A DNA stretch of 50,988 nt, from NCBI GenBank assembly GCA_001899445.1, contig MPOA01000005.1, forward strand, positions 1 through 50,988, given 5' to 3'. Position 1 is the first letter of the stretch; each line of letters opens with the position of its first letter. Shown piece after piece: positions 665 through 50,385 of the stretch. A program made the translations under genes and the position numbers. The notes beneath the pieces were generated by a model. The model saw only the letters and a list, made by a program, of their open reading frames with translations, was not told where the DNA came from and searched no databases. Source of the DNA: Candidatus Desulfopertinax cowenii. GTDB lineage: Bacteria; Bacillota; Desulfotomaculia; Desulfotomaculales; Desulforudaceae.

Positions 665-829
665 TTAACTCATTGCTTGCTCTACATTTGTAAATATTTC
701 CACGACACGATCTCCCAGAAGCACAAGAGCTGCTATAACTACCACCGCGATCAAGGCTAGGATCAGACCGTATTCCACCAATCCCTGGCCCTCTTCGTCC
801 TTAAACAGCCTTTTGATGAGGTTCAGCAT
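665..829 (-). CDS. Flp/Fap-type pilin, 54 aa
   Basis: This short gene encodes a class III (Flp/Tad) pilin subunit that would be assembled at the cell surface. The protein starts MLNLIKRLFKDEEGQGLVEY. It has the charged leader, the G-x-x-x-x-E-Y prepilin peptidase motif around residues 14-20 and a single hydrophobic helix (about 21-39). It ends with a short amphipathic tail, and 50-60 residues is usual for Flp pilins. The ATG follows the ribosome binding site AGGGAGGTGAACAGG. No tad/cpa assembly genes lie in the window, so assembly would depend on genes elsewhere. The gene sits directly downstream of two c-di-GMP riboswitches on the same strand, so transcription probably responds to c-di-GMP. 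Confidence 0.85.
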   Translation of the reverse strand: MLNLIKRLFKDEEGQGLVEYGLILALIAVVVIAALVLLGDRVVEIFTNVEQAMS

Positions 830-849
830 TCCTGTTCACCTCCCTTCAA

Positions 850-880
850 AAACAAACTCATCGGCCAGTTGACGGATGAG
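850..880 (-). terminator. Weak hairpin with T-run between riboswitch and pilin
   Basis: On the minus strand CTCATC (880-875) pairs with GATGAG (862-857). The tract TTTGTTTTT follows at once. This sits between the proximal riboswitch and the pilin ribosome binding site, where a transcription-terminating expression platform is expected. The stem is short, so its strength is uncertain. Confidence 0.45.
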
Positions 881-896
881 CATTACTTGGACTGCT

Positions 897-984
897 TACC
901 GGCAACTGGCTGGCGTAGCGGGTCACCCGCCTTAGCCCCTGTAGCTTTGCGCCGCCAGCTTTCGCTGGCTTTGCCTTTGTCGGT
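897..984 (-). promoter_or_regulatory. c-di-GMP-I (GEMM) riboswitch, proximal copy
   Basis: Read on the minus strand, this has the class I c-di-GMP aptamer layout: GGCAAAGCC, a P2 stem closed by a GAAA tetraloop, the conserved GCGCAAAGCTACAGGGGCTA block, a P3 hairpin (GGCGGGTGACCCGC) and a GCC-TTGCC closing strand. The core at 901-979 is identical over 79 bases to the distal copy. The outer P1 strands are TACCG and CGGTA and can pair. A hairpin lies between it and the Flp pilin gene. Confidence 0.85.
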
Positions 985-1015
985 ACACCTTTAATGGTTG
1001 CCGGAAACCCCCGGT

Positions 1016-1052
1016 AACTGAAACGGCCCGCCTTCCACTGCCAGGCGGGCCG
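1016..1052 (-). terminator. Strong hairpin between the two riboswitches
   Basis: On the minus strand CGGCCCGCCT (1052-1043) pairs perfectly with AGGCGGGCCG (1033-1024) around a 9-base loop. The short tract TTTCAGTT follows. It lies downstream of the distal c-di-GMP aptamer and upstream of the proximal one, as expected for that aptamer's own expression platform. The T-run is short, so termination efficiency is uncertain. Confidence 0.6.
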
Positions 1053-1075
1053 CATTCTCAAGAAGTCCTTTAACT

Positions 1076-1164
1076 CCTGGCAACTGGCTGGCGTAGCGGG
1101 TCACCCGCCTTAGCCCCTGTAGCTTTGCGCCGCCAGCTTTCGCTGGCTTTGCCTTTGGCAGGAA
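1076..1164 (-). promoter_or_regulatory. c-di-GMP-I (GEMM) riboswitch, distal copy
   Basis: This is the same aptamer as the proximal copy, with the 79-base core (1079-1157) identical to 901-979. The flanks differ, but P1 pairing is kept: CCTG on the 5' side pairs with CAGG on the 3' side, where the other copy has TACCG/CGGTA. Both copies carry one mismatch at the same place in P1. It lies about 40 bases downstream of a canonical minus-strand promoter. Confidence 0.85.
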
Positions 1165-1211
1165 TACCATATACTATATACTATACTGCCAAATACTTTA
1201 CCTTTCCCTAC

Positions 1212-1240
1212 ATTATACATGGTTGTCCATGCTTTGCCAA
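1212..1240 (-). promoter_or_regulatory. Sigma-A-type promoter for the riboswitch-pilin transcript
   Basis: The minus strand carries TTGGCA (1240-1235), a 17-base spacer and a perfect TATAAT (1217-1212). Transcription would start near 1205. It would read through both c-di-GMP riboswitches (1164-1076 and 984-897) before the pilin gene, giving a leader of about 375 bases. Confidence 0.75.
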
Positions 1241-48711: not shown

Positions 48712-50292
48712 TCAGGTTCTTTTCCGAAGCAGCCTGACAAAAATCTCCACTAAGTGCGGGTCGAACTGGGTTCCCGCGCTTCGCTTCAGCTCCTCCAAGG
48801 CTTCCGCGGGCGACCGGGCCGAGCGGTAAGGCCGCTTCGACGTCATCGCGTCGTAGGCGTCGGCGATGGCCAGGATGCGGCTCAGAATGTGGGTCTCCTC
48901 GCCGCGCAGCCCCCGGGGATATCCCTGCCCGTTCCACCGTTCGTGGTGCTGCCGGATGAGTTCCGCCACCGGGGCCAGCTCGGCGGAAGAGAGCGCGATC
49001 CGGTATCCCACCTCGGGGTGGCGCCTTATTTCCTCCCACTCTGTTTCGGTGAGTGCCGCAGGCTTGAAAAGGATATACTCCGGCACCCCCAGCTTGCCGA
49101 TGTCGTGCATGTCTGCCAGCAGGCAAAGGGTGTCCAGGTCGTTTCGGGAGAGCTCCACCGCTTCGCCCAGCATGCAGGCCAGCTTTTTCACCCGCTCCGT
49201 GTGGCCCCCGGCCACGAAATCTTTCTCCGCCAGGGCCACCTTGAGCACGCGGACAACTGCGCGGTGCGGCTCCGTCCCCCTGGCGAGCTTGTCCCGGTAC
49301 ATGGCGTCGTCGGCTTCGGTGTACACTTTTTGCAGTGGGCGCGAGGCATCCTCTGCCGTTGCTATTCCCAGGGAGATGCTCAGGGGGAGATCCGGGTGCT
49401 GCGCGTTGTTCCGCTCTACCGCCTCGATTATGCGCTTGACCACCTCTTCCGCCGCCTTCCGGTCCGTTTGCGGCAAGACCACGGCGAACTCGTCCCCGCC
49501 AACTCGGGCTACCACGTCGGCCCCGCGGACGCAACCCGCGAGCACCTTCGCTGTCCGGCGCAGGAGTTCGTCGCCCCGCTCGTGGCCCAGGGCATCGTTA
49601 ACCACCTTCAGGCCGTTGAGGTCGCAGAGGATGAGGCTCACGGGAAAAGAGCGACCTTTCTCCAGCCGCCGCAGTTCCTCCTCGAAGAACGCCCGGTTGT
49701 AAAGCCCGCTGAGCGCGTCGTGCGTGCTCTGGTGCCTCAGCTCGTCCTCCATCTTCTTGCGCTCGCCAATGTCGCGGGTACACTGGACCGCTCCGAGCAG
49801 GTTCCCTTTCTCATCGTAGATCGGGGCCGCGAGGGTCCAGAAATGAAGCCCCCGGCCGCCGTAAGCGCAAGGCGCAAAACCTTCACCGATAAGAACTTGG
49901 CCCTTCTGCTTGATTTTCTCGTATCTTTGTGCCCACTCCTGGCCGTTGCCGAGCAGGATGTTCACGAGGATGGGCCTGCGTTCTCCGTAAAACGGGACGG
50001 CGTAGGCGTATTCGCCCTTGCCCAGCACCTTTTCCTTCCTGATGCCTGTCATTTCTTCCACGGCTCGGTTCCACAAGACCACCTTGCCTTCACGGTCGAC
50101 GGCAAGGACGCCGTCCGGCAGGAGATCGACAATCCGCTCGATAAGGCTAAGCCTTTCTACCAAGTCTTCCGGCAGCGGGGCGTCGCTTTCAACGAGCAGG
50201 TTAGCCAGCAATCTCCTGGCCGCTTCCGTTTTGCCTTCCGGTAGAGCATCCACCAGCCGGTGGAGATCGCGTCTTCGCTGGTCCGCGCGCAT
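48712..50292 (-). CDS. PAS-GGDEF-HD-GYP c-di-GMP synthase/hydrolase
   Basis: A protein of about 526 aa. A PAS domain (about 40-165; LLPDGVLAVDREGKVVLWN) is followed by a GGDEF domain with intact GGDEF and an RGAD inhibition site five residues before it. The HD-GYP domain has DMHDIGK and HHERWNGQGYPRGLRGEE. Both the diguanylate cyclase and the c-di-GMP phosphodiesterase sites look intact, so direction probably depends on the PAS signal. ATG 50292 is favoured but GTG 50301 and TTG 50385 are possible. No signal peptide or membrane helix is seen, so it is cytoplasmic. Confidence 0.9.
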   Translation of the reverse strand: MRADQRRRDLHRLVDALPEGKTEAARRLLANLLVESDAPLPEDLVERLSLIERIVDLLPDGVLAVDREGKVVLWNRAVEEMTGIRKEKVLGKGEYAYAVPFYGERRPILVNILLGNGQEWAQRYEKIKQKGQVLIGEGFAPCAYGGRGLHFWTLAAPIYDEKGNLLGAVQCTRDIGERKKMEDELRHQSTHDALSGLYNRAFFEEELRRLEKGRSFPVSLILCDLNGLKVVNDALGHERGDELLRRTAKVLAGCVRGADVVARVGGDEFAVVLPQTDRKAAEEVVKRIIEAVERNNAQHPDLPLSISLGIATAEDASRPLQKVYTEADDAMYRDKLARGTEPHRAVVRVLKVALAEKDFVAGGHTERVKKLACMLGEAVELSRNDLDTLCLLADMHDIGKLGVPEYILFKPAALTETEWEEIRRHPEVGYRIALSSAELAPVAELIRQHHERWNGQGYPRGLRGEETHILSRILAIADAYDAMTSKRPYRSARSPAEALEELKRSAGTQFDPHLVEIFVRLLRKRT

Positions 50293-50385
50293 GCTCTTCA
50301 CCGCCCCGCCGTTACTGGATTTTTGGTTTTCCTTGCCCGGCTCTTGCCGGTTAACCCGGACTTGATTCTTCCCCCTAGGCCGCAA

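Follow-up and report, generated by a model that had tools for sequence, protein, structure and literature searches.

Introduction

Tandem c-di-GMP-I riboswitches are a known type of gene switch and the most numerous tandem class surveyed, with 347 doublets and 12 triplets on record (PMC9481103). Cd1 of Clostridioides difficile is a single OFF switch of flagellar genes, in which a transiently stable antiterminator uses the aptamer 3' strand while terminator and aptamer can coexist, whereas the pilM riboswitch of Geobacter metallireducens senses cGAMP, acts as an ON switch and carries an aptamer strand within its terminator (PMC9262584).

Here, we describe a tandem (pseudo-cooperative) c-di-GMP-I pair which is predicted to lie in the 5' leader of a Flp (Tad) pilin gene of Candidatus Desulfopertinax cowenii, with a putative intrinsic terminator for each aptamer. 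It was found in a window, i.e., the whole stretch of DNA that was analysed, of 50,988 nucleotides. Like published tandems, of which the B. thuringiensis triplet is an example, it places two aptamers of the same class in a shared leader, each followed by a candidate platform; unlike these, it precedes a Flp/Tad pilin gene, has identical 79-nt cores and probably works in the OFF direction. With Cd1 it shares the predicted coexistence of aptamer and terminator, a proposed, transiently stable antiterminator drawn from the aptamer 3' strand and, as we infer, a transcriptional OFF logic, but it is a tandem before a pilin gene rather than a single switch of flagellar genes. As in pilM, a GEMM-I fold is tied to pili; in contrast to pilM, the present aptamers retain G20, and the aptamer strand is no part of the terminator. 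No new kind of system is revealed, and what is noteworthy is the Flp target and the homogenised cores set against position-specific P1 arms and platforms. We place the probability of the account as a whole, viz., tandem OFF switches with kinetic antitermination in an old array whose cores were homogenised by gene conversion, at roughly 65%.

Two complete aptamers with identical cores precede a Flp pilin gene

The original prediction of tandem c-di-GMP-I riboswitches was borne out by cmscan, in which the minus strand of 897-1165 gave two strong RF01051 matches, both spanning model positions 1-87 of 87 and far above the gathering cut-off of 35 bits: 1076-1163 (E 1.3e-13; upstream copy, aptamer 1) and 898-985 (E 3e-14; downstream copy, aptamer 2). 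The elements of the locus are as follows, in the order of transcription.

1212-1240, minus strand: sigma-A-like promoter TTGGCA-17-TATAAT (11/12 consensus matches; a consensus match only)
1154-1193, minus strand: leader hairpin UUUGGCAG/CUGCCAAA, which captures the 5' P1 strand of aptamer 1 (anti-P1; -13.9 kcal/mol)
1073-1165, minus strand: c-di-GMP-I aptamer 1 (upstream) with its P1 (RF01051, 77.5 bits; P1 read from the sequence)
1079-1157, minus strand: 79-nt core, copy 1 (same letters as 901-979)
1039-1082, minus strand: proposed antiterminator 1, UGCCAGG (1082-1076) with CCUGGCA (1045-1039), from folding of partial transcripts
1024-1052, minus strand: terminator-like hairpin 1, CGGCCCGCC/GGCGGGCCG (-22.0 kcal/mol; alignment with the G007 array)
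997-1018, minus strand: linker hairpin (-7.3 kcal/mol)
897-985, minus strand: c-di-GMP-I aptamer 2 (downstream) with its P1 (RF01051, 80.1 bits)
901-979, minus strand: 79-nt core, copy 2 (same letters as 1079-1157)
864-910, minus strand: proposed antiterminator 2, GCCAGUUG (910-903) with CAACUGGC (871-864), from energies and shuffles
848-880, minus strand: terminator hairpin 2 (880-857, -9.5 kcal/mol) with its tail UUUGUUUUU
665-829, minus strand: Flp/Fap pilin gene, 54 aa, preceded by GGGAGGUG (PF04964, E 5.7e-10, 39.3 bits against a cut-off of 32.2 bits)

Both RF01051 matches lie downstream of one promoter-like site, as befits same-ligand aptamers in one leader. The core identity noted earlier is exact and extends no further on either side. 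It corresponds approximately to residues 16 to 93 in the numbering of Vibrio cholerae Vc2 (PMC3764141) and spans J1-2, P2, P3, J3-1, the ligand-contacting C92 and the C93 of the first P1 pair. Likewise, the GEMM-I sequence features that had been pointed out, GCAAAG and CGAAAG with its GAAA tetraloop, are present in both copies.

A hairpin follows each aptamer, as had also been proposed. Hairpin 2 has the arms CUCAUC..GUC/GGC..GAUGAG followed by UUUGUUUUU. Hairpin 1 has a tail with few U residues, UUUCAGUU, and alignment shows this hairpin to be homologous to terminator 1 of a related array (G007), which has two strong terminators and in which this tail is TTTTT. Upstream, the 8-bp leader complement to the 5' P1 strand of aptamer 1 is reached by 0.06% of shuffles. 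Between the two switches, the 3' arm of the linker hairpin, CCGGCAAC (1004-997), could base-pair with GUUGCCGG in the 3' strand of aptamer 2, a complement matched by 0.64% of shuffles. The linker also contains, at 1011-1020 on the minus strand, CAGTTACCGG, which agrees with the aptamer end CAGTTGCCGG at nine of ten positions, possibly as the remnant of a lost third copy or else by chance. On the plus strand, a second promoter-like sequence, TTGGCA-16-TATACT (1155-1184), overlaps the 5' edge of aptamer 1 and faces a Wzy_C (O-antigen ligase) gene at 1339-2526; given this overlap, the flp and Wzy_C genes may share a divergent promoter region.

Helix P1 is kept in pairing rather than in sequence

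The core identity stops at P1, whose arms differ between the copies and nevertheless pair in each. The downstream copy forms five pairs (U985-A-C-C-G981 / C901-G-G-U-A897), and the upstream copy six Watson-Crick pairs and one G-U (A1165-U-U-C-C-U-G1159 / C1079-A-G-G-A-G-U1073), the G14-C93 pair being common to both. In both aptamers, therefore, the closing helix is kept in pairing rather than in sequence. The original prediction read this covariation as direct evidence of structural selection; its pairing stands, but the two copies alone supply just two compensatory changes among five comparable pairs (C-G to U-A and A-U to C-G). Across 19 related aptamers, 60% of the P1 cells are paired, against 24-56% after sliding by 1-3 columns, and the covariation score is equalled in one of 500 shuffles, which suggests moderate support for P1 at the family level. 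The simple P1 register is not kept in every relative because the length of J1-2 varies.

Predicted switch logic

In both switches the aptamer and the terminator can coexist in the energy model, and neither terminator includes the aptamer 3' strand. In the same model, the layout is that of Cd1: a terminator compatible with the aptamer has its rival in an antiterminator built from the aptamer 3' strand. At switch 2, the antiterminator complement is matched by only 0.08% of shuffles, the antiterminator is the minimum-energy fold from position 864 onward (with folding begun at aptamer 2), and it leads at equilibrium by 4.5 kcal/mol (-62.8 versus -58.3 kcal/mol for P1 plus terminator). At switch 1, the 7-bp antiterminator complement is equalled in 3% of shuffles, and the antiterminator is the minimum-energy fold, or at most 1 kcal/mol from it, when the transcript 3' end lies at 1036-1028 and the terminator arm is still incomplete; for ends at 1032-1028 it is the minimum outright. 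The model puts terminator 1 ahead of antiterminator 1 by about 8.5 kcal/mol at equilibrium; OFF control at switch 1 must therefore be kinetic.

Hence, we propose that without c-di-GMP the aptamer 3' strand (GCCAGUUGCC plus the variable P1 arm) would pair with the incoming terminator sequence and keep the terminator open until the polymerase has passed. With c-di-GMP, this strand would be locked in P1 and the P3 junction, such that the terminator could form and transcription would stop. Two such gates in series would make the shut-off of the pilin steeper as c-di-GMP rises. The dose-sharpening that was originally suggested would fit the published behaviour of tandem c-di-GMP-I switches (PMC9481103).

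The steepness depends on hairpin 1, whose weak U tail (UUUCAGUU) means that termination there may be inefficient. Switch 2 might then work alone, with hairpin 1 decayed or merely insulating and no two-gate device at all. The contrast between this tail and the TTTTT of the homologous terminator speaks for such a decay, but nothing is missing from aptamer 1, its P1, the leader hairpin or the antiterminator complement, the core is unchanged, and we regard a lone working switch as rather unlikely.

The direction of control might also be reversed, with c-di-GMP causing read-through and the adhesive pilin being made when c-di-GMP is high. Since c-di-GMP usually favours adhesive structures, this ON logic is what would be expected for pili and biofilms, against the OFF reading, and some tandem c-di-GMP-I switches, such as the B. 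thuringiensis triplet, are indeed ON. Moreover, a locus of the same order (L113) has the aptamer 3' strand inside its terminator (GCCGGGTTGC/GCAACCCGGC-TGTTTTTT), i.e., an ON layout. In contrast, neither terminator of the present array contains that strand, and aptamer and terminator can form together. The one hairpin here that does use the aptamer 3' strand, GCCAGUUG/CAACUGGC, stops 7 nt short of the U tract and is disfavoured as a terminator by this gap at its base. ON control is accordingly unlikely. OFF control, with c-di-GMP terminating transcription, is the better and, on folding models and analogy, a probable reading because the layout matches that of the OFF switch Cd1, unlike that of the ON switch pilM (PMC9262584).

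Origin of the identical cores

Comparison of the tandem pairs of the order, with each platform ranked against 86 platforms, separates the history of the cores from that of their surroundings. The best match of platform 1 is position 1 of the G007 array (Z 4.3) and that of platform 2 is position 2 of the same array (Z 4.6), followed by position 2 of G063:C44; this position-wise homology comes mainly from one 73%-complete genome (G007), with weaker matches in G063 and G019. The two platforms of the present array have no detectable similarity to each other (Z 0.3-0.4). The P1 types agree with G007 by position as well, UUCCUG/CAGG being followed by ACCG/CGGU. Since the platforms match by position, the array either is older than the divergence of these genomes or passed between them as one piece. 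The G007 tandem (G007:C39:1543-1796, from the same family) has cores 83-86% identical to those described here; unlike them, its two cores differ from each other, and it precedes a secreted surface-protein-like ORF. The G063 array also precedes a gene other than flp. A search of this genome for a homologue of the G007 surface protein, run without a positive control, found none.

The cores behave in the opposite manner: they are 100% identical within this array as against 82-92% between genomes, with a maximum of 92% to any other aptamer. More generally, in seven of 11 tandem pairs the partner cores resemble each other more than they resemble any further aptamer of the sample. Homologous tandems occur in G007, G063 and G019, most with well-formed terminators. 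Further tandems of the exact subtype were sought in 113 genomes of the order, which yielded none beyond the same four, and in 398 genomes across the phylum, which yielded this array only; plasmid records contained no match.

The array thus appears to be old, with cores that would have been homogenised afterwards within this genome while P1 and the platforms stayed distinct. From these comparisons, the identity is explained most simply, and most likely, by gene conversion that did not reach beyond the common core. P1 might escape conversion either through flanks devoid of homology or through the need of each P1 arm to fit its own terminator. A broader form of this proposal is concerted evolution, wherein conversion would repeatedly homogenise the cores within a genome and stop at P1 because its 3' arm doubles as the antiterminator strand of its own terminator, leaving cores that cluster by genome and platforms that cluster by position; we give it even odds. 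In the open-access literature (subscription papers lay outside this scope) no work joining tandem riboswitches with gene conversion was found, the sole co-mention concerning introns.

Unusually strong constraint on the core may also underlie the identity, and at this one strain it is inseparable from conversion. The original prediction had offered recent duplication or gene conversion. A recent tandem duplication of the aptamer without conversion would directly yield 100% core identity, and three tandems of the order (G019:C64, G019:C1 and G095) do look recently duplicated, platform sequence included. Here, the flanks of the two copies show no kinship, each instead resembling its positional counterpart in the array of another genome, and a duplication ending precisely at the two P1 borders would require fresh P1 arms and terminators to arise around an unchanged core. 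Recent duplication is disfavoured by the platform comparison and appears improbable, and conversion is the part of the prediction that gains from it.

If this account is true, the array offers a clean natural case for testing whether gene conversion keeps twin riboswitches identical, and a case for how one aptamer helix serves both ligand sensing and terminator choice.

Ligand

In the numbering of ligand contacts G20, A47 and C92 taken from PMC3764141, the G20 equivalent is G (975, 1153) and the C92 equivalent is C (902, 1080) in both copies, as in all 50 aligned aptamers, these two included. As these residues are kept, both aptamers are predicted from their sequence to bind c-di-GMP rather than cGAMP. 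With the same contacts and identical cores, a two-input gate, the other mode of control that had been suggested, is not expected. RF01051 probably takes in G20A variants that sense cGAMP too, and membership in it would in itself be compatible with cGAMP or another dinucleotide as the ligand, but with G20 and C92 retained, cGAMP specificity is rejected and this alternative is exceedingly improbable.

Genomic surroundings

Downstream of flp, the minus strand of 1-660 holds a transposase remnant and then the contig ends. The same genome has a full Tad operon (C6:391-7269), which starts 391 bases into contig C6 and comprises TadE, a TadE/G-like protein, CpaB, a CpaE-like ATPase, a CpaF-type ATPase and two T2SSF proteins. 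An inverted 24-nt match (20/24) links the left end of contig C5 (23-46) with that of C6 (42-65), as expected if each of these ends is one side of a single insertion element. Plausibly, then, flp formerly headed the Tad operon of contig C6, and an insertion element now lies between them.

The genome also has a third c-di-GMP-I aptamer, which comes shortly after a PilT-like ATPase gene and about 170 bp ahead of prepilin-like genes, names that were read from the sequence rather than from a profile search. The genome encodes six GGDEF proteins, one of them within the window, and c-di-GMP signalling is thus likely present. An ORF at 48712-50385 on the minus strand of the window has a GGDEF domain and, judged by its sequence, an HD-GYP-like part (HDIGK), pointing to possible synthesis and breakdown of c-di-GMP on the same contig.

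Related Flp loci

Within the same genus (G001 and G002), no syntenic orthologue was found: G001 has no Flp match, and G002 has a Flp gene of 70% identity whose 2.4-kb locus is without a c-di-GMP-I aptamer. Likewise, 29 Flp loci from related genomes contained none within about 1.5 kb to either side. In contrast, a set of 80 Flp loci from named genomes includes six (L128, L159, L139, L143, L135 and L124), from Thermincola-like or unclassified Firmicutes, with one c-di-GMP-I aptamer 65-126 nt upstream of flp and a clear terminator between the two. Riboswitch control of Flp pilins by c-di-GMP therefore recurs. The likeness to the present locus lies in the order of aptamer, terminator and pilin gene; these loci differ in having a single aptamer at the start of flp, and one of a different sequence subtype. 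If our account holds, c-di-GMP would be tied to the Flp/Tad pilin through RNA, a tie that recurs in the Thermincola-like genomes.

Two further arrangements were seen. L111 combines both aptamer classes on the minus strand of 157-493, where one of c-di-GMP-I (406-493) and one of c-di-GMP-II (157-240) point the same way and are separated by about 165 nt, i.e., a mixed-class tandem for one ligand. In L135 (2764-4070, from the MAG HGW-Firmicutes-14), three c-di-GMP-I aptamers lie within 1.3 kb around the flp gene.
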